64,000 nucleotides of DNA from contig NZ_CP060828.1 of the NCBI RefSeq assembly GCF_014489635.1, forward strand, positions 1,984,001 to 2,048,000, in the 5' to 3' direction. Of this stretch, positions 51,426-60,957 are shown one piece after another. Numbering within the stretch: position 1 is the stretch's first letter; the number at the start of each line of letters is the position of its first letter. The notes under the pieces are model-generated. The model saw nothing but the letters and a program-made list of their open reading frames with translations, ran no database searches and was not told where the DNA came from. The DNA comes from Streptomyces roseirectus. Lineage in GTDB: Bacteria > Actinomycetota > Actinomycetes > Streptomycetales > Streptomycetaceae. The translations under genes were made by a program, and so were the position numbers.

Positions 51426-51641
51426 ATGACCTGCGTGAACACCTCCTCCGGCCGTACGGTCCAACTCGGCGAGCACCCCGTGTGGGACGCCGCCCTCGCC
51501 CTCCTCAACCGCGAGCGGGTGTACGTGGTGATGCCGGACGGCACCTGGCACGGCAACGACCTCCCGAGCGGCTGTGGGAGGTGTGGCCGGTGTGCGATAG
51601 GTGAGTCGATACCCCGTCACAGAAAGCGGCGGGAGCGGTGA
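51426..51641 (+). CDS. Doubtful 71-residue ORF, possibly a gene remnant
   Basis: ATG 51426 opens a frame reading VQLGEHPVWDAALALLNRER, then VYVVMPDGTWHGNDLPSG and a Cys-rich GCGRCGRC, ending in a basic tail. The first half looks coding, the second does not. It is divergent from the ArsR-type gene and might be the broken start of a lost gene. I do not recognise it. Confidence 0.3.
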   Translation: MTCVNTSSGRTVQLGEHPVWDAALALLNRERVYVVMPDGTWHGNDLPSGCGRCGRCAIGESIPRHRKRRER

Positions 51642-51817
51642 AAAGAGCGGAAACGGCGCGCGGCGTGGCCACCGGTTGCTCACAGTTTCCCTGCGGTTCG
51701 CTCTTGCCCCTTGTGCGCGGCACCGGTCGCCTCCAACCTGAGCATTGCTCAATTCTCTTTACGCCTCGACGCCCATCCCTTTTCCCTTTCTTTTCGTCGA
51801 CCGGAGACTCCCCCACC

Positions 51818-53137
51818 ATGAGACGCATCATCGGCACCCTCACGGCGGCCGCCCTCGGCCTCGCCGGGCTGACCGTGGCCACGGCGGCGCCCGCGCAGGC
51901 GGCGACGTCGGGGACGTTCAACGTCCTGACGTACAACGTCGCGGGCCTGCCGGAGCCCCTGAGTTCGAGCAAGCCGGCGACCAACACCCCGTTGATCTCG
52001 CCCCGGTTGGGGGCCTACGACATCGTCAACGTGCAGGAGGACTTCAACTACCACGCTGCGCTGTACGAGCGCGACGACCACCCGTACCGCACGCCGACGA
52101 GCGGCGGCGTGCCGTTCGGGGACGGGCTCAACACGCTCTCCGACCTGCCGTTCGAGGACTTCGAGCGGGTCCGCTGGAACAGCTGCACCGGCACCAACTG
52201 CCTGACCCCGAAGGGCTTTTCGCTGGCCCGGGTGCGGCTCGCGGAGGGCGCCTTCGTGGACCTCTACAACGTCCACACCAACGCGGACTCCACCGAGGAC
52301 GCGCTCGCCGCGCGGCGCGCCAACATCACGCAGCTCTCCGACTTCATCCGGGCCAACTCGGCGGGCAACGCGGTGATCGTGATGGGCGACACGAACACGC
52401 GCTACACCCGCAGCGGGGACAACATCCGCACGCTGACCTCGGTGAACGGCCTCACCGACGCGTGGGTCCAGCTCGTCAGGGGCGGGACGGCGCCGACGCA
52501 GGGCGCGGACGCGCTGGTCTGCCCGACGAGCGCGCCGCCGAACACCTGCGAGGTCGTCGACAAGGTCCTGTACCGCGGCAGCAAGCTGATCGACCTCTCG
52601 GCGACCCGCTACAACAACGACTGGGCGAAATTCCTCGACTCCGCCGGCGGCAACCTCTCCGACCACTTCCCGCACGCCGTCGACTTCACGTACACCCTCA
52701 ACTCGGCAGTCCGGGCAAGCGACTTCTTCGGCGGTCCGCACGGCACGGCCTTCAACGACGCGGACGATCTGCCGGCCGCGCCCGCGCCCCGCACGCTCAC
52801 CCTGCGCGGCGACGCCCGCCTCGACGCCCTCTCCCTGACCCACGCGGACGGCACCGCCCTCACGCACGGCGGCACCGGCGGCACGGCGACGTCCCTCACG
52901 CTCACGGCGGGCGAACACCTCACCTCCGTCAAGCTGACACAGGGTCAGAAGGACGGCCACACGCGGATCTTCTCCGCCGACTTCGGTACGGACAAGGGGC
53001 GTTCCCTCTCCGCCGGGACAGCGACCTCGGACACCCGGACCTTCACCGCGCCGGCCGGGTGGCAGATCGTCGGCTTCACCGGGCGGGCCGGGGCCGAGGT
53101 GGACAAGCTGGGGGTGCTGTACGCGCCGATCAAGTGA
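51818..53137 (+). CDS. Secreted endonuclease/exonuclease/phosphatase-fold protein with jacalin-like domain
   Basis: 439 residues from ATG 51818 (GGAG 11 nt upstream). The signal peptide is RRIIGTLTAAALGLAGLTVA, cleaved near AQA-AT. The catalytic EEP fold has the landmarks FNVLTYNVAGLPE, DIVNVQEDFN (metal-binding Glu), LYNVHTNAD, AVIVMGDTNTRY (GDTN) and NLSDHFPHAVDF (terminal SDH). These match sphingomyelinase/DNase I-type phosphodiesterases. The last ~125 residues are jacalin-like (ARLDALSLTHADGTALTHGG, REWQ-like WQIVGFTGRAGAEVDKLGVL). It may be an extracellular phosphodiesterase acting on lipids or nucleic acids of other cells. Confidence 0.87.
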   Translation: MRRIIGTLTAAALGLAGLTVATAAPAQAATSGTFNVLTYNVAGLPEPLSSSKPATNTPLISPRLGAYDIVNVQEDFNYHAALYERDDHPYRTPTSGGVPFGDGLNTLSDLPFEDFERVRWNSCTGTNCLTPKGFSLARVRLAEGAFVDLYNVHTNADSTEDALAARRANITQLSDFIRANSAGNAVIVMGDTNTRYTRSGDNIRTLTSVNGLTDAWVQLVRGGTAPTQGADALVCPTSAPPNTCEVVDKVLYRGSKLIDLSATRYNNDWAKFLDSAGGNLSDHFPHAVDFTYTLNSAVRASDFFGGPHGTAFNDADDLPAAPAPRTLTLRGDARLDALSLTHADGTALTHGGTGGTATSLTLTAGEHLTSVKLTQGQKDGHTRIFSADFGTDKGRSLSAGTATSDTRTFTAPAGWQIVGFTGRAGAEVDKLGVLYAPIK

Positions 53138-54534: not shown

Positions 54535-55422
54535 TCACCAAGTGGGCCGACGGGCCTCGCCGTTCACCCCGCCCGGTACAGGGCGCCCCACCGCCAGCAA
54601 CCGGTCCCGCAGCATCTCCGAGAGTTCCTGCCGTTCCTGCTGGGTGAGCGTGCCGAGCAGGCCCGCCATGTCCTCCTGCCAGTTCCCTTCCGGGCGTAGG
54701 AGTTTCTGGTGGCTGACCGACCACTCCAGCACCCGCCCGACCTCTTCCGGTCGGCGCGCCAGCCAGAGCGCGGCCAATGATGCCGGGCCGTCACGCAGGA
54801 CGCGCAGGCAGAAGTCGTATTCTTCGCGCGGGAGTACGGACCAGGAGTGCGCCGGAATCTGGCCGGGCTGCCCCAGGCTCAGTTCACCGGAGCCCTCGGC
54901 GCCGTACACGTCCACGAGACGGTAGGTCAGACCGACGTCGTCCAACATGAAGGAGTCGGCGGCCAGTTGGTGCATCACGCTCGCCGCGCTCACGTCGGAC
55001 TCGCCGGAACCGGCCAGCGCGCGCAGTCGCCGGTCGAGGTCGGCGCGTACGGCGCTCCAGCCCTCCTTCGTGCCCGAGCGCACGGTCCGCGCGGGGTCGT
55101 GGACCCACCACAGCACCCTGGCGTCCACCGACTCCGCGCCGTACATCGTGGGCAACGTGACGCGCCTGGTGCCGAGTTGTTCGTCGAGACGGACGTGGAA
55201 CGCCGCGTCGTACCGGCCCAGCAGGGACGGCGCCGGTTCTTCGGTGATGCGGCTGAGTTCGTCGACGGGGGTCGACTTCCGGTGCGGGGCGCCCAGTACG
55301 CGGTATCTGTGGTCGGGTGTCCTCAGGACGAGCGCCCGGTCCCGCCGTCCGGACCAGCGCTGGCCGAGGAGTTCGCGCCAGGGGGAACGGGGGGCGACGG
55401 TGTAGACGGGGGTGTCGGTCAT
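54535..55422 (-). CDS. Unrecognised protein, last gene of the cyclase/NTPase cassette
   Basis: 295 residues, ATG 55422 overlapping the NTPase stop by 4 bp. No TM helix, signal peptide or familiar motif. The N-terminal half is beta-rich (PVYTVAPRSPWRELLGQRWS, RALVLRTPDHRYRVLGAPHR, RYDAAFHVRLDEQLGTRRVT). The C-terminal half is helical and acidic (EEYDFCLRVLRDGPASLAAL, WQEDMAGLLGTLTQQERQEL). Translational coupling to the NTPase indicates a shared task. It could be an effector, adaptor or immunity-type protein; the sequence alone does not decide. Confidence 0.8.
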   Translation of the reverse strand: MTDTPVYTVAPRSPWRELLGQRWSGRRDRALVLRTPDHRYRVLGAPHRKSTPVDELSRITEEPAPSLLGRYDAAFHVRLDEQLGTRRVTLPTMYGAESVDARVLWWVHDPARTVRSGTKEGWSAVRADLDRRLRALAGSGESDVSAASVMHQLAADSFMLDDVGLTYRLVDVYGAEGSGELSLGQPGQIPAHSWSVLPREEYDFCLRVLRDGPASLAALWLARRPEEVGRVLEWSVSHQKLLRPEGNWQEDMAGLLGTLTQQERQELSEMLRDRLLAVGRPVPGGVNGEARRPTW

Positions 55423-57479
55423 CTCGGGGTCCCTTCCGGTGCCGGTGAACTGGCGCCCGCACGCCAGGCGTTGAGTGCGCGGCGGGCGGTGTCCCGGCCC
55501 GCGAGGTCGGGGGCCGAATGGCGGTCGATCTCGACGAAGAGCCGCAGGGTGCCGTGGCGCATGTCGCGGGCGAGGTGGTCGAAGAGCGTGGTCACGGCCT
55601 GGGCCCTGCGCTCGTTCCAGGTGCCCTCGCGGCACCAGCTCAGCAGGGCGCCCCCGGTGGGCCCGAACGAGGCGTCCCGGTCCAGGGCCCGGCGTACGAG
55701 GTCCACGATCGGCGCACTGAACTCCCCCTCGCCCAGCAGCTCTTCCCCGAACCACTCGCCGCCGTGCAGCAGCGAGGGCAGGACGGCGAACGCGAGGTCC
55801 GCCTCCCATTCCGGGTCGGCGTCGGCCCAGCCGAGGACGCACCGGAAGACCATCGGCCGGGTGTCCTCCGTGAAGAGTTCGGCCAGGGCGGCGCGGATCG
55901 CCCGGTTGACGTGCCGTTCCTCCTCGTCGGACTGCGGTGATCTGGGCAGCCCGCGCAGCAGGGACAGCGCGAGGTCGGGCCTCGCCAGCCCGAAGCGGGT
56001 GCCGCAGGCGTGGGCGACGGTGGTGCGCCGCTGCCAGCCGGCACGCCGACTCCAGTCGGTGAGACGGTACTTGACCTCGGTCGCGAGCACCGGGTCGTCG
56101 GCGGCCATGCCCAGCGCGTGCGCGGCGATACGCCTGCCGGTGCCGGTGTCGGAGCCCGCGAGGGTCGAGATGTGTCCCAGGGCCCGCCGTCCGCCGCCCC
56201 ATCCCGCCGCGAGGCCCATCACGTGCCCGGCCGGCGTGGCCAGTTCGGAGTCGTCCTTCACCCCTTCGAGCCAGGCGGTGAGGACGACGGACAGTCTGCC
56301 GTACTCCCGCCACACGTGCCGCAGGACTGTCTCGGCCTTCCGGTGCCGGGTGAAGCGCACCGGCTCCACGGCGTAGGTGAAGCCGCTCGCCGTGCGGATC
56401 TCCTTCGGCGCGCACTGGGCCCGGACGGTGCGCAGCAGGTCGTCCAGCGAGCGTCGGAAGACGAACCGCGGGTTGTCGCGCGGGACTTCGGAGGAGCCTT
56501 CGGTCGCCGGGAGGAGCGCGGCGAGCTGTCCGTCGGCGACCTCCAGGAGCCGGTCCGCCTCCTCCCGTACGACGCGGTGGTCAAGGCCCTCGAAGACGCA
56601 CGCGGCCATGAGGAAGGCGAGGCCGTCGGGGTCGTCGCGCAACGTGTCGATCAGTTCCGGTGCTTCGTCCTCGGCGAGGAAGCTGAGGCGGCTGCGGATG
56701 TCCTCGCCTTCCTGGTCCGGGCCGGTCAACAGGGCGACGAGTTCGGCGACTTCGGCGGGGACCAGCTCCGGTGCGAGCAGCTCGTCGACGAGGCCCGGTT
56801 CGAGGCGTTCCAGGAAGGCGGCCCGTTGTCCGGCGTCCGGGATCTCCGCTTCCAGGCGGGCGTCGAACACGGCCCGAGGCGGCGGCGGTTCGCAGCGGAC
56901 GGGGGTCAGGTGCAGGTCGCGTTCGACGCGGCGCAGGAGTTCGGGGTCGTCGGGGAGGATGATCACCATGCTGGCCCGCTCGGTGCGCAGGCGGTCGCGC
57001 AGGTTGCCCAGGACGGCGGGCTTGAGCGGCTGAGTGGGGACGAGCCCGTCGACCAGGTAGCCGAGGGTTCCTTTGTTCTTGGGCTGCCAGAGGTCGAGGT
57101 CCGTGCTTCCGTCGACGGCCCTGAAGTTCAGTCCGCCTCCGGTGTGCCGGCGCAGCAGGTTGAGCGCCGCCGTGCGGCGGCCCGTGCGGGGTGCGCCGGT
57201 CAGAAACAGGACTCCGGTGCCGAGTTGCGCCAACGCGGCGGGAAACCAAGGGGGTTCGGCGAATCCGCGTTCGGCCTCCAGGATCTCCAGGGAGGAGATG
57301 GGCCCTTCCAGGGCCTCGATGCGCTGGGTCTGCGTCGCCGTGATCCCGCTCTGTACCCGCTGACCGCCGTTCACCGTACCGGTGTTGATGTTCGCGTAGG
57401 ACGCGTAGATGACGGAGCGGGCGTCGGCGGGCAGGTCGTCCGTGTCGTCGTACCCGTCGTTCTCCCCGAGCGCGTTCAC
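55419..57479 (-). CDS. P-loop-like NTPase/STAND-type protein with N-terminal amyloid-like motif
   Basis: 686 residues from GTG 57479, overlapping the cyclase stop by 4 bp. Residues 29-45 (ANINTGTVNGGQRVQSG) nearly repeat a motif at the C-terminus of the upstream cyclase. A Walker A-like loop lies at 95-103 (GAPRTGRRT), with Arg where Lys is canonical. A hydrophobic strand ending in two Asp, MVIILPDD (171-178), may be Walker B. The rest is helical, including a HEAT/TPR-like stretch (RIAAHALGMAADDPVLATEV, RAIRAALAELFTEDTRPMVF). The order (short motif, NTPase, helical repeats) resembles bacterial NLR-like STAND proteins. Biochemical activity is not shown. Confidence 0.8.
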   Translation of the reverse strand: MNALGENDGYDDTDDLPADARSVIYASYANINTGTVNGGQRVQSGITATQTQRIEALEGPISSLEILEAERGFAEPPWFPAALAQLGTGVLFLTGAPRTGRRTAALNLLRRHTGGGLNFRAVDGSTDLDLWQPKNKGTLGYLVDGLVPTQPLKPAVLGNLRDRLRTERASMVIILPDDPELLRRVERDLHLTPVRCEPPPPRAVFDARLEAEIPDAGQRAAFLERLEPGLVDELLAPELVPAEVAELVALLTGPDQEGEDIRSRLSFLAEDEAPELIDTLRDDPDGLAFLMAACVFEGLDHRVVREEADRLLEVADGQLAALLPATEGSSEVPRDNPRFVFRRSLDDLLRTVRAQCAPKEIRTASGFTYAVEPVRFTRHRKAETVLRHVWREYGRLSVVLTAWLEGVKDDSELATPAGHVMGLAAGWGGGRRALGHISTLAGSDTGTGRRIAAHALGMAADDPVLATEVKYRLTDWSRRAGWQRRTTVAHACGTRFGLARPDLALSLLRGLPRSPQSDEEERHVNRAIRAALAELFTEDTRPMVFRCVLGWADADPEWEADLAFAVLPSLLHGGEWFGEELLGEGEFSAPIVDLVRRALDRDASFGPTGGALLSWCREGTWNERRAQAVTTLFDHLARDMRHGTLRLFVEIDRHSAPDLAGRDTARRALNAWRAGASSPAPEGTPR

Positions 57480-58408
57480 CGCGACCCCGTGTTCTTGTCG
57501 CCCTGCACGGTGTCGCCGAGATTGCCGTGCACGGTGCCCACCTTGTGTCCGCCGACCTGGTCCCCGCCGACATGGCTGACGTTCTGGTCCCCGCCGACGT
57601 TGCTGACGTGCTGACCGCCGTGCACCGTACCGCTGTTGACGTTTCCGTGGTCCGCGCGCTGGATCACCTTCCCGCCCCGCCGCCCCTTCGCCCGCTCCTG
57701 CGGCACGGCCTTCTGCTGGTCGTCCACCACGTGGTCCCCGAGGATGCGGCGGTCGTAGAGGTTCCCGGAGGGGGCGGGGATGTAGAGCCAGGCGCGTTGC
57801 GCGAAGCGCTTGCCCTCGACCGTGGCGGGGACTTCGATGAAGTGGTCGGGGTGGCGGCCGGTGTAGCCGCTGGCCACCGCGTCCTCGAAGCAGCGGTCGG
57901 AGACGATCGCCGCCACCTGGGTGATGTTCTCGCTGGAGGCCGCGAGCATCGCCTTCACCGGGCGGGAGTCGAGCAGCCGGTGGGTGTCGTTGCGGGGTGT
58001 GCCGTTGCCGTCGAACTCCTCGCCGGAGTCGGGCAGCGGGCCGATGTGGAGGCTGACGCGCAGGCGCAGACCCGCGACTCCGTTGGAGTGGACGTTGAAC
58101 TCGGTGAGGATGTCCTGGAGTTGGTGCAGCCAGGGGTGGATGACGAAGGGCATGGCCGCCGGGTCGAACCCGAACACGTAGCCGTCGCCGGTGGAGTTGG
58201 GGAAGCGGCGGTCGTTCCACAGCTCGTCGAGGCCGGACCGCTCCAGTGACATCCTGAGGAGCTGGGGGATGTTGCGGCTGATGGTGCCGTGCTCGATGGC
58301 GGGGTGGCCGGTGAAGTCCTTGGCGTCGACGGCGACGATGCCCCGGTAGGGCGGGAGTGCACGGCTGCGGCTGTACGGGGACGCGGTGGGCACGGGCAGG
58401 TCGGACAT
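57476..58408 (-). CDS. Class III nucleotidyl-cyclase-like protein with C-terminal GG/VN repeat tail
   Basis: 310 residues, ATG 58408 with GAGAGGA 6 nt upstream. Residues ~20-190 fit a class III cyclase fold. Metal-ligand candidates are Asp28 in GIVAVDAKDFTG and Asp75 in STGDGYVFGF (47 apart, as usual). LRVSLHIGPL precedes Asn140 and Arg144 in TPRNDTHRLLDS, the transition-state pair N-x3-R. The purine-specifying Lys/Asp cannot be assigned, so the nucleotide is open. The last ~57 residues are a repetitive tail: GNVNSGTVHGGQHVSNVGG, then QNVSHVGGDQVGGHKVG and TVHGNLGDTVQGD. It shares its first unit with the NTPase N-terminus. A cNMP-binding regulator is encoded immediately upstream. Confidence 0.82.
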   Translation of the reverse strand: MSDLPVPTASPYSRSRALPPYRGIVAVDAKDFTGHPAIEHGTISRNIPQLLRMSLERSGLDELWNDRRFPNSTGDGYVFGFDPAAMPFVIHPWLHQLQDILTEFNVHSNGVAGLRLRVSLHIGPLPDSGEEFDGNGTPRNDTHRLLDSRPVKAMLAASSENITQVAAIVSDRCFEDAVASGYTGRHPDHFIEVPATVEGKRFAQRAWLYIPAPSGNLYDRRILGDHVVDDQQKAVPQERAKGRRGGKVIQRADHGNVNSGTVHGGQHVSNVGGDQNVSHVGGDQVGGHKVGTVHGNLGDTVQGDKNTGSR

Positions 58409-58478
58409 GGTCTTCCTCTCGGATTCCTGAAGTGGGTCTGTCGGCCGGGCACTTCGAGAATCCGGGAAAGCGCTCGGG

Positions 58479-58510
58479 TCACCTGCTGCCCGAGTGCAGC
58501 AATCAGGTGA
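58479..58510. terminator. Stem-loop between the Crp/Fnr and cyclase genes
   Basis: Nested arms TCACCTG plus CTGC (58479-58489) and GCAG plus CAGGTGA (58496-58510), with a small bulge, overlap the Crp/Fnr stop codon. It may reduce read-through into the cyclase gene or stabilise the mRNA end; no U-tract is present. Confidence 0.4.
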
Positions 58511-59225
58511 CGCGGGTCACATTCGAGTGGTGTGACGGCGTCTCTCGCGCGGCGAACCGGCGCAGGGCGGGCAGGTCCCCGATCTCGATCCCGCCCCGGC
58601 CTCTGACGCGTACGGCCCCGAAGACCGGCTCCTGGGCGATCAGGCGGCCGACGGTGTTGCGGGACATCTTCAGATGTTGGGCCAAGTCCATGACGCTCAA
58701 GGGGAGTTCGACACCCTCCCGGACGCACGGACCGGGCCAGTACGAGATGTCGGCGATGCGCACGAGCGCCCCGGCAACCCGTTGCGGCGCCTCACCGGTG
58801 TGACGCCCCTCGGTGGTCTCACGAACCCGGATGATGGCGTGCCGTTCGAGGTGCGGGGCGAGCCGGTGGTCGTCGACGAACCGGCCGAACCGGGCCGCCG
58901 GCATGACCGCGACCCGGCAGGGGTCGAGCGTCTCCACACTCGCGAGCCGTCCACCCCCGCCCCGCACGGCCATCTCGCCGAGCAGTTCCCCCGGCCCCCG
59001 GAACGCCAACAGGTCCTTCGCGCCGTCGCGTTCGGCCCTGACGACCTTGGTCAGCCCGCTGAGCAGCACCAGTACATGCGAACCGTCCTCCCCTTGCCGC
59101 AGCAGGACGTCGCGGGCGGGGTGGAGGCGTTCGTGCGCGCCCTCCAGCAGTGCCGCCCAGACCCCCTCCCCCACGATGTGCCGCAGGGTGCGCCCCTCCC
59201 AGCCGGGGTGTGCCACGTCGCTCAT
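58503..59225 (-). CDS. Crp/Fnr-family regulator with cyclic-nucleotide-binding domain
   Basis: 240 residues from ATG 59225. The cNMP-binding beta roll runs from LRHIVGEGVWAALLEGAHER. It contains ARDVLLRQGEDGSHVLVLLSG and the phosphate-binding cassette region FRGPGELLGEMAVRGGGGRL (GELLGEMA, as in CAP), where the final Arg-Ser/Thr of classical cAMP binders is not obvious. The C-terminal winged HTH has LPLSVMDLAQHLKMSRNTVG, RLIAQEPVF. It lies 94 bp upstream of the cyclase-like gene on the same strand, which suggests that it senses that enzyme's product. Confidence 0.9.
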   Translation of the reverse strand: MSDVAHPGWEGRTLRHIVGEGVWAALLEGAHERLHPARDVLLRQGEDGSHVLVLLSGLTKVVRAERDGAKDLLAFRGPGELLGEMAVRGGGGRLASVETLDPCRVAVMPAARFGRFVDDHRLAPHLERHAIIRVRETTEGRHTGEAPQRVAGALVRIADISYWPGPCVREGVELPLSVMDLAQHLKMSRNTVGRLIAQEPVFGAVRVRGRGGIEIGDLPALRRFAARETPSHHSNVTRVT

Positions 59226-59274: not shown

Positions 59275-60957
59275 CTACAGATGGCGTTCGACCTCCACCT
59301 TCCCGTCGGCCAGCCGGACCTTGACCTCACTGCCGTCGGCCCACCGCACCGCCAACTCCCCCTCCCCGTACGTCTCGACAGTCGCCCCCTCCCCCAACTC
59401 CTCCGGCTCCGCCTCCCCCGTGAGGCGGGCGAGGGCGACGAAGAGGGTGGGTCCGGGGCCTGTGCGGGTGCCCTTGAGGAGAGTGAGATCGGCGTGGGCG
59501 CCTTCGGGGGCGGACCAGCCGGTGAGGTGGACGAGAGTGTTCTCGGGGGCGTCCGAGATGAGGAACGCGCGTACTTCCAGGGGGCCTTGGGCCAGGGTGA
59601 CGCTGGTGACGCGGGCGCCGGTGGCGGTGGTGTGGCGGGAGGCGATCCAGTCGTCGCCGGCGCCGAGGGGGGTGATGTCCGTGCGGGTGGGGTCGCCGCC
59701 GACGATGACGCTGTTGTCGGGGGTGGGGGACGAGGTCGGGGTTGTCACCGTCGAGTAGGCGAGGCGGGTGTAGTAGGGGTCGTAGCGGACGTCCTCGCTG
59801 CCGTGGTTGTGGAGGCGGACGATGCCGTCCGAACTGGTCGACTGGAGGAGCCAGTTGGGGGCCTTCAGCGGCGTCAGGGCGTCCTCGCGCTCCGCCGGGG
59901 ACGGGGTTTCCGTCGCGGTCCAGACCTCGTGCTCCGCGGGGAGGAGGAGGCCGAGGAAGCCCTTGCTGGCCCAGTACGGGGACGCCGGGCCCGAATAGCC
60001 TTGCAGGACCTCGGGGTCGGGACCGTGCCAGCCGAGGGTGAGGAGGCCGGTCGTGTCGTCCACCGCGTTCCGGTCCAGGAAGTACTTCAGGGCGCCCGAG
60101 GCGAGGCGGCGGGTCTCGCCGGGGGGCAGCGGGGTGCGGCCGGTGAGGGCGCCGAGCCACAGGGGGGCCGTCGTCGCGAAGCGGTACGTGAGGGAGCGGC
60201 CCTGGTGCAGCGGGGCGCCGTCGCCGCCGAACAGGCGGGCGTAGTCGGCGAGATGGCGTTCCAGGCGGCCGCCGTAGAGGTCGAGGAGGGCGGTGTCCTG
60301 GGTGAGCCAGGCGTGCAGGACCGGGTAGAGGTGCAGGGCCCAGCCGTTGTAGTAGTCGAACTTGCGGCCGTCGCCGTCGGTGTACCAGCCGTCGGCGACG
60401 TACCACCGCTCGATGCGCTCCAGGCCCTGGGTGATCGCGCGGCGGGAGGCTTCGGGTTCGTGGCCGATCGACTCCAGGAAACCGCCGACGGTGACCGGGA
60501 ACAACTCCCAGTTGCAGGGCCAGGGTTCGGCGGTGAGGGCGTCCGACAGCCAGGCGGCGGCGCGCTGTTGGACCGAGGGGGTCAGGCGGTCCCACAGGAG
60601 GGGGCGGGTGAGGTGGAGGGCGAGGGCGATGGAGGCGGCCTCGACGAGGGACTGGTGACGGTCCTCGATCTTCGGCCACACGCCCGCCGTGCCCGCCGCC
60701 AGGCCGTCCGCGTAGCGCTCCAACGCCGTCTCGTCGCGGCGGAACGCGGCCAGCAGGAGGGTCCGGGCGTAGCCTTCGAGGCCGTCGGAGAGGCGGCCCG
60801 TCCAACTCTGGCGGTCGCCGGGGAAGTGGTAGAGGGCGCGGTCGGGGGTGGCGTACGGCTCGGTCGCGGCGAGGAGGGTGTCGGCGGCCGTCTCCCAGTG
60901 GGCGCGGGTGTAACCGGTGACCGGGCTGCGGGCGGGGTCGGGCGGGGGGAGGTGCAT
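59275..60957 (-). CDS. DUF2264 family protein, probable sugar-degrading enzyme
   Basis: 560 residues. It has the (alpha/alpha)-barrel pattern of DUF2264: YTRAHWETAADTLLAATEPY, LFPVTVGGFLESIGHEPEAS, WYVADGWYTDGDGRKFDYYN and PLHQGRSLTYRFATTAPLWL. ASPYWASKGFLGLLLPAEHE comes next, and the C-terminus is beta-rich. The conserved acidic/aromatic residues in WYTDGDGRKFDYYNGWALH are candidates for the active site. No signal peptide, so it is cytoplasmic. Its position next to a rhamnogalacturonan acetylesterase and a rhamnogalacturonan lyase suggests action on pectin-derived oligosaccharides. Confidence 0.88.
   Translation of the reverse strand: MHLPPPDPARSPVTGYTRAHWETAADTLLAATEPYATPDRALYHFPGDRQSWTGRLSDGLEGYARTLLLAAFRRDETALERYADGLAAGTAGVWPKIEDRHQSLVEAASIALALHLTRPLLWDRLTPSVQQRAAAWLSDALTAEPWPCNWELFPVTVGGFLESIGHEPEASRRAITQGLERIERWYVADGWYTDGDGRKFDYYNGWALHLYPVLHAWLTQDTALLDLYGGRLERHLADYARLFGGDGAPLHQGRSLTYRFATTAPLWLGALTGRTPLPPGETRRLASGALKYFLDRNAVDDTTGLLTLGWHGPDPEVLQGYSGPASPYWASKGFLGLLLPAEHEVWTATETPSPAEREDALTPLKAPNWLLQSTSSDGIVRLHNHGSEDVRYDPYYTRLAYSTVTTPTSSPTPDNSVIVGGDPTRTDITPLGAGDDWIASRHTTATGARVTSVTLAQGPLEVRAFLISDAPENTLVHLTGWSAPEGAHADLTLLKGTRTGPGPTLFVALARLTGEAEPEELGEGATVETYGEGELAVRWADGSEVKVRLADGKVEVERHL

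Follow-up and report, generated by a model that had tools for sequence, protein, structure and literature searches.

We analysed a 64,000-nucleotide window of the Streptomyces roseirectus genome (contig NZ_CP060828.1, positions 1,984,001 to 2,048,000, in a 9.95-Mb single-contig genome), in which four minus-strand genes, with coordinates checked in the sequence, lie between positions 59225 and 54535 in the order crp, cyclase (cyc), NTPase-like and fourth gene. The first (58503..59225, 240 residues) encodes a Crp-type cyclic nucleoside monophosphate (cNMP)-binding transcription regulator that matches PF00027 (E 9.7e-17) and PF13545 (E 1.6e-9), and a 94-bp intergenic spacing separates it from the gene of a class III nucleotide cyclase with a long C-terminal tail (57476..58408, 310 residues), recognised by its invariant catalytic residues and a profile match. 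A 686-residue STAND-like (NTPase-like) protein with a GTG start (55419..57479) and a 295-residue SPFH/Band-7-like protein, assigned to its fold by predicted structure (54535..55422), complete the operon, and 4-bp overlaps, GTGA and ATGA, join the last three genes. A first-pass annotation of this DNA had given the same gene order, coordinates and overlaps, all of which check in the sequence, had listed the fourth protein as unknown, and had missed a short Asn/Gly/Val-rich motif shared by two of the proteins. This motif occupies residues 252-270 near the C terminus of the cyclase (ADHGNVNSGTVHGGQHVSN, 57599..57655, minus strand) and residues 26-44 near the N terminus of the NTPase-like protein (ASYANINTGTVNGGQRVQS, 57348..57404, minus strand), where it falls inside a segment with a predicted local distance difference test score (pLDDT) below 50; the two copies align with an ungapped score of 60.

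Two sets of loci were compared with the window. For the first set, 40 loci were fetched and 39 kept, L062 being dropped for want of a tblastn match to the cyclase; the second set comprises 39 loci (L132-L170) taken from the results of a cyclase-profile search across the class and picked before their tails were inspected, mostly the best-scoring matches of that search and some of them close kin of one another. Among the fetched loci, tblastn recovered Crp, cyclase and NTPase in each of the 16 with the nearest cyclases (L032-L047) and the complete four-gene set in 15, with a partial NTPase match in L046 and a crp match split over two frames in L037. Queries with the neighbouring DUF2264 and TetR genes of the window matched none of the 40 fetched loci while the four genes stayed together in 15 of 16, and the arrangement is therefore not a matter of chance; the co-occurrence in other genomes by which the first-pass annotation had proposed to check the cassette was thus recovered. 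A same-strand Crp gene lies within 1.7 kb upstream in 33 of the 39 first-set loci with a cyclase match; the gap is 700-900 bp in four of these, and two further loci carry a divergent Crp gene. A profile search of the second set recovered the NTPase in 31 loci, Crp in 32, of which 27 have it directly upstream, and the fourth gene in 7, which makes the fourth gene the least constant part. Downstream of the four-gene set, L037 and L038 hold a second, divergent NTPase copy (L037:13083-15140 and L038:4525-2600, 31-32% identical); in L151 and L152, where the cyclase tail is short, the NTPase is replaced by a protein of 550-618 residues after the cyclase, without a Pfam match and hydrophobic by eye.

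The cyclase has 440 homologous proteins at E ≤ 0.001, query included, the nearest of which, from Streptomyces sp. 4F14, is 90% identical. The best 120 homologues are mostly annotated as hypothetical, and the other organisms named among them are Streptomyces, Kitasatospora or Streptomycetaceae. Within the genus, 74 of 199 genomes contain a cyclase relative at E ≤ 0.001 and 17, own genome included, the close form at E ≤ 1e-70. Class-wide, the family occurs in 83 of 394 genomes at E ≤ 1e-8, in several copies in some, and in a sample of the phylum 32 of 396 match at E ≤ 0.001, the weak matches being read as ordinary class III cyclases. The phage records searched contained no relative, and plasmid records contained 11, all distant.

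The tail motif varies between subfamilies, yet the tails of cyclase and NTPase usually match within a locus, as illustrated by the cyclase and NTPase segments of the window (NVNSGTVHGGQHV and NINTGTVNGGQRV), L051 (FSHTGEHGIQAYN and FSHSGEHGIQAYN), L063 (AKAKGRARVVQVGGN and AKASGHAHVTQVAGD), L146 (FSGASGTFVGVNQNSTNHGKQNY and FSSASGMFSGINQNSPNHGTQNY) and L159 (VTISGDGAQSAFGNTV and VTITGDGAQSAFGNTV). Among the 30 first-set pairs scored against shuffles, window included, 28 matched at p ≤ 0.05 and 22 at p ≤ 0.01. For 13 hand-picked subfamily representatives, the true pairing summed to 711 against 458 (standard deviation 40), a sum reached by none of 100,000 re-pairings, and the NTPase head of the same locus ranked first for 7 of the 13. 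The second set behaved similarly, with 23 of 31 scored pairs matching at p ≤ 0.05, a pairing sum of 1716 against 1017 (standard deviation 53) for re-pairings, none of 20,000 equalling the true pairing, and 14 of the 31 loci placing their own head first; where another head did better, it often belonged to the same motif class. Of the 120 listed cyclase homologues, query included, 112 retain the motif in a loose form. In the 46 of 61 pairs above the score limit, codons agreed at 357 of 589 identical tail residues, close to the 327.6 expected from codon usage, so that the match is kept mainly at the protein level. The paired segments, analysed in 24 of 25 hand-picked pairs, have a median length of 20 residues, are rich in N, F, I, V, H, Q and G, and are poor in P, E, R and K.

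Further GD-x-V-x-G repeats often follow the cyclase motif (57476-57600, minus strand, in the window), one form being present in 68 of the 120 listed homologues; HET-s, with effectors of two repeats, offers a comparison for such repeated units. Searched as a DNA pattern across the genome, GTVxGGQ matched the two tails and one other site, and this sole extra match, in a 45-codon open stretch, was read as spurious, so that the motif was not taken to link further proteins of the genome. A 152-residue protein encoded beside the cyclase in L055, L056 and L060 has a tail that looks, by eye, like the cyclase motif; it recalls the BELL proteins for which bacterial amyloid signalling sequence (BASS) motifs have been described, and the two examples that were scanned had no Pfam match. 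The same three loci contain divergent P-loop genes with Gly/Asn-rich heads, and the head of the P-loop/TPR protein of L056, VTGPVVQAGTIHGDVSI, closely resembles cyclase tails, for example GQVVQGGTIHGGVNF in L136.

In an alignment of 38 cyclases (the window and 37 of the 39 first-set loci), D28, G74, D75, R117, G123, R144 and K200 are invariant down to 24% identity, and we take D28 and D75 to be the two metal-binding Asp residues, R144 the transition-state Arg and K200 the phosphate Lys. The first-pass annotation had singled out Asp28, Asp75, Asn140 and Arg144; the positions are right and three of the residues are invariant, whereas N140 is kept in only part of the family. Its expectation of a class III fold with two metal Asp residues agrees with the invariance of D28 and D75 and with the family profile, which picks out 3mr7 (E 2.3e-7) and Ma1120 (E about 1e-3) among class III cyclase structures, and these features, together with the PF00027 domain and cassette of the Crp protein, support its view of a class III cyclase adjoining a cNMP receptor. 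The single window cyclase found no match in the PDB by phmmer and none in Pfam, and across the 38 members no Pfam model scored better than E 0.02. A Lys that reads adenine or another purine would presumably stand three residues before the GD motif and presumably differs in non-purine cyclases; the position is Asn71 in the window and is variable among relatives, and the substrate is therefore not readable from the sequence. Pyrimidine cyclases likewise use other base-reading residues, according to the accessible text of PMC11224242. From these residues and the profile, we infer a class III nucleotide cyclase, predicted to make a cNMP. Neither the 38 cyclases (none at E ≤ 0.001) nor the window NTPase matched the defence-protein library PADLOC, in line with the earlier remark that this combination was not recognised as a described system. 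Elsewhere in the family, cyclases are fused to a C-terminal TIR domain (L166:7294-8451, minus strand, and L167:7424-8620, plus strand; PF13676, E 2.5e-25 and 5.4e-22) or to a GUN4-like domain (L168:6056-7318, minus strand, E 1.8e-7), and a Band_7 protein that follows the GUN4-fused cyclase (L168:4479-6107, minus strand) forms an independent cyclase-SPFH link.

The AlphaFold model of the NTPase-like protein (pLDDT 82.5) contains a disordered head (residues 1-56, pLDDT < 50), a P-loop domain (about 57-270) and a helical solenoid (about 380-686). The nSTAND3 model (PF20720) matched 3 of 28 aligned members (the window and 27 of the 35 called) at E ≤ 0.001, the best at 9.9e-8, and 12 of 28 at E ≤ 0.5. 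The Foldseek list for the protein includes NLRP7, NLRP9 and AVAST5; VIA-align gave AAA+ and HEAT proteins, and no NLR, among the 50 matches listed. Profile searches of the PDB with the NTPase and the fourth protein returned nothing but weak matches or unrelated names, no relatives turned up when genome contigs were probed with the NTPase, and 2 of the 28 members weakly matched the TRIP13 model of the defence-protein library. A folded effector-associated domain (EAD) appeared among the 28 members only as one weak EAD8 match (E 0.13) and in none of the 38 cyclases. The P-loop named in the first-pass annotation is present as a P-loop domain in the model, but its Walker A Lys is not: the degenerate motif GAPRTGRRT (residues 95-103; 57171..57197, minus strand) has Arg in place of the usual Lys, which only 3 of 30 aligned NTPase-like members keep (L057, L061 and L066). 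Sequence and model point with moderate confidence to a STAND/NLR-type protein, and since its N-terminal tail matches the cyclase tail, we place it next to the cyclase and probably upstream of it in the signalling order. The earlier idea that the NTPase stands in place of a Pycsar-type effector does not fit this placement, and an effector role was judged unlikely in view of the tail match, the degenerate P-loop and the lack of a cNMP domain match.

The phosphate-binding cassette keeps G83, E84 and R93 unchanged in all 26 aligned Crp sequences (the window and 25 of the 33 same-strand Crp genes), and the family profile matches Crp proteins of the PDB at E about 1e-42; the protein thus has the two parts of a Crp regulator, a cNMP domain with its phosphate-binding cassette and an HTH_Crp domain. 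The identity of the messenger was not readable from the pocket, inspected by eye. Within the last codons of crp, at its 3' end and 113 bp upstream of the cyc start, lies a Crp-type operator, TGTGACCCGCGTCACC (58506..58521, minus strand), which agrees with GTG(N)6GNCAC, the Crp consensus of S. coelicolor given in the accessible text of PMC10033298. If any site with 8 or more of the 10 consensus bases counts as a box, 21 of 23 loci (the window and L032-L053) have one at -180..-80 of cyc, against a background of 0.012 per 100 bp. In the second set, 14 of the 39 loci have a box at -230..-60 of cyc, against 0.012 expected per locus. Genome-wide, TGTGA-N6-TCAC gives 62 strand matches and the reversed pattern 2. 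With a DNA-binding Crp protein as receptor and a Crp-type operator ahead of cyc, the readable output is transcription.

The fourth protein, aligned from 20 of 31 sequences in one alignment and 19 of 31 in the other (that of L042 being misframed), adopts an SPFH/Band-7 fold in its predicted structure; Pfam Band_7 (PF01145) matched none of 21 members at E ≤ 1. From the model, it is probably a scaffold or a membrane-proximal partner. Outside the operon, a DUF2264 protein (59275-60957, minus strand) adjoins crp directly upstream, and an endonuclease/exonuclease/phosphatase-fold protein with a jacalin-like lectin domain (51638-53137, plus strand) is unrelated to it.

The paired tails recall BASS systems. 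As described in the accessible parts of PMC7889193, a motif at the NLR N terminus recurs at the effector C terminus, the genes being adjacent or overlapping; excerpts of PMC8086366 report further pairs found through local alignment of neighbouring proteins, and in both sources pairs are recognised by similar C- and N-terminal motifs in neighbours. The operon likewise has adjacent or overlapping genes with the same short motif at the N terminus of a STAND-like protein and at the C terminus of the partner, and it shares with BASS the many motif families and the occurrence in filamentous bacteria (PMC7889193, PMC8086366 and PMC12261475, as far as their text was available). It differs in its partner, a nucleotide cyclase with a Crp gene beside it, whereas the partners named in the same excerpts are BELL, CHAT and TIR, which are typical effectors and are not stated to be exclusive. 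The likeness is one of layout and motif pairing. Within the BASS literature accessible to search, no cyclase was found, the founding BASS paper lying outside this scope and possibly mentioning one; nor did any literature among the matches listed couple amyloid signalling to a nucleotide cyclase. PMC8195603 contains both terms, and in the text available its one 'amyloid' is an entry in the reference list.

With Pycsar, the operon shares a class III cyclase gene beside the gene of a cNMP-binding protein, but Pycsar pairs PycC with PycTM or PycTIR, whereas here the receptor is a Crp transcription factor and STAND-like and SPFH-like proteins are added. Membership of Pycsar was ruled out, the cNMP domain being followed by HTH_Crp_2 instead of a transmembrane or TIR domain and the cyclase having no PADLOC match. 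The systems of Kaur et al. 2020/2021 (VMAP/vWA-MoxR, iSTAND2 and TERNS3) also combine cNMP cyclases, Band-7 proteins and STAND NTPases; in the excerpts of PMC7159879 and PMC8195603, these conflict systems include occasional Crp-like factors, cyclases joined to STAND systems via folded adaptors, and cyclases coupled to Band-7. In contrast to them, the coupling element of the operon is a short motif, and vWA, MoxR, VMAP and folded EAD had no Pfam match in the four window proteins. The Streptomyces cAMP (cyclic AMP)-Crp/adenylate cyclase system has the same Crp fold, cNMP cassette and operator type (PMC10033298, in the portion available), but the operon has a dedicated divergent cyclase in the same cluster and a STAND-like partner.

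We propose, with a confidence slightly better than even, that the operon is a relay from sensor to second messenger to transcription that works through templated prion-like tails. The STAND-like protein would sense a cue and oligomerise, and its clustered tails would template the cyclase C-terminal motif, with which they match, into a shared cross-beta assembly. Class III cyclases function as dimers, and clustering of the cyclase domains, which retain their catalytic residues, would therefore lead to cNMP being made. The Crp protein, through its conserved cassette, would bind this cNMP and act at the box before cyc, giving positive feedback on operon transcription and probably reaching further targets, while the SPFH-like protein, going by its predicted fold, would probably serve as a scaffold or membrane-proximal partner. 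We class the operon as a putative case of amyloid-type NLR signalling whose output is a second messenger, and set it apart from Pycsar. From the kind of its parts, a role in conflict or stress appears likely, and a part in phage defence is conceivable. More tentatively, and at somewhat less than an even chance, the related loci may form a signalosome family in which prion-like templating by a STAND-like protein acts through the cyclase, its cNMP and a dedicated Crp to amplify the operon, with many orthogonal motif classes separating neighbouring circuits.

Several observations weigh against this relay. Among the 39 second-set loci, 12 have no Crp called directly upstream, 8 have no NTPase match, and a recognisable fourth gene occurs in only 7. 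Eight of the 31 second-set pairs lack a significant match, 10 first-set and 8 second-set loci were left unscored, the next gene being no NTPase of suitable length, and several formally significant alignments, at least those of L059, L064 and L067 in the first set and L147 in the second, fall in Pro/Ala/Ser/Glu-rich linkers outside the motif; moreover, the loci are related, so the shuffle and re-pairing statistics overstate independence. The NTPase-like protein of the window itself has no nSTAND3 match, only 3 of 28 members having one at E ≤ 0.001, the Foldseek template-modelling scores to NLRs are about 0.2, and the loss of the Walker A Lys in 27 of 30 members, the window's included, makes ATP hydrolysis doubtful. 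The box group L032-L053 was selected after the initial box result, only L054 among 17 loci outside it has a box at -180..-80, and the interval was widened for the second set (-230..-60 against -180..-80). Because the box fits the global Crp consensus of the genome, the binder may be the global Crp or the local one.

The shared tails might instead be a short docking motif, a beta-strand pair or a small adaptor fold, with the same signalling order and no amyloid. The pairing statistics show matching and not physical form, and related conflict systems join STAND-type NTPases to cyclases by the folded adaptors EAD and bDLD3 (excerpts of PMC8195603); against this, the paired segments are short (median 20), predicted to be disordered in the NTPase and amyloid-like in composition, a weak EAD match (E 0.13) occurs in just one of the 28 NTPase members, and similar C- and N-terminal motifs in neighbours are how BASS pairs were recognised in the accessible parts of PMC7889193 and PMC8086366, so that we regard docking as rather unlikely. 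That the tail match is a functionless by-product of DNA duplication or low complexity is hardly credible. Codon identity is high in a few loci (9 of 10 in the window, 16 of 17 in L159) and the tails are Gly-rich, but the overall codon identity is near expectation (357 against 327.6 of 589), for which a duplication origin was judged weak, the matching exceeds composition shuffles and re-pairing, and 112 of the 120 listed homologues retain the motif. It is also improbable that the cyclase domain is a dead fold kept as an adaptor while Crp answers cAMP from the ordinary cyclase of the genome, although the adenine-reading Lys, at the position we presume for it, is missing (Asn71), no Pfam cyclase model matches, and another cyclase in the genome passes the PF00211 cut-off; the metal Asp pair, transition-state Arg and phosphate Lys, in their presumed roles, are invariant in 38 members down to 24% identity. 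Other base-reading residues are, moreover, found in pyrimidine cyclases too (PMC11224242, text seen in part).

A Pycsar-like order, with the cyclase as sensor and the NTPase-like protein as messenger-triggered effector, seems highly improbable: the cyclase does adjoin a cNMP-binding protein, whose cNMP domain weakly matches PycTIR models (E 1.2e-4), but this domain is fused to a DNA-binding domain and none matched in the NTPase, the P-loop is degenerate, and the tail matching suggests direct contact between NTPase and cyclase. The purpose of the circuit is a separate matter, and it is quite possible, if somewhat short of even, that it serves development or nutrient/stress control rather than defence, with the local Crp sensing its own messenger and tuning the operon, a purpose compatible with the tail-templating mechanism. 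The output is a transcription factor and not a toxin, the copy in the window is part of a 9.9-Mb contig, and the search found no relative in phage records and only distant ones on plasmids. The patchy presence of the family (the close form in 17 of 199 genus genomes at E ≤ 1e-70) speaks against this purpose, as do variable neighbours and changing motif classes that resemble conflict systems, and family cyclases fused to TIR (L166, L167).

If the relay through templated prion-like tails is correct, the operon would join amyloid templating by NLR-type proteins with cyclic-nucleotide messengers, immune themes seen apart so far, and would add a further kind of partner to bacterial amyloid signalling, for which the literature available to us names BELL, protease and TIR domains. 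Its receptor and operator, being self-contained, would be convenient as a reporter. It would also supply a predicted cause for cyclase activation and a paired motif set for signalling specificity, and would suggest functions for a family of proteins mostly annotated as hypothetical.

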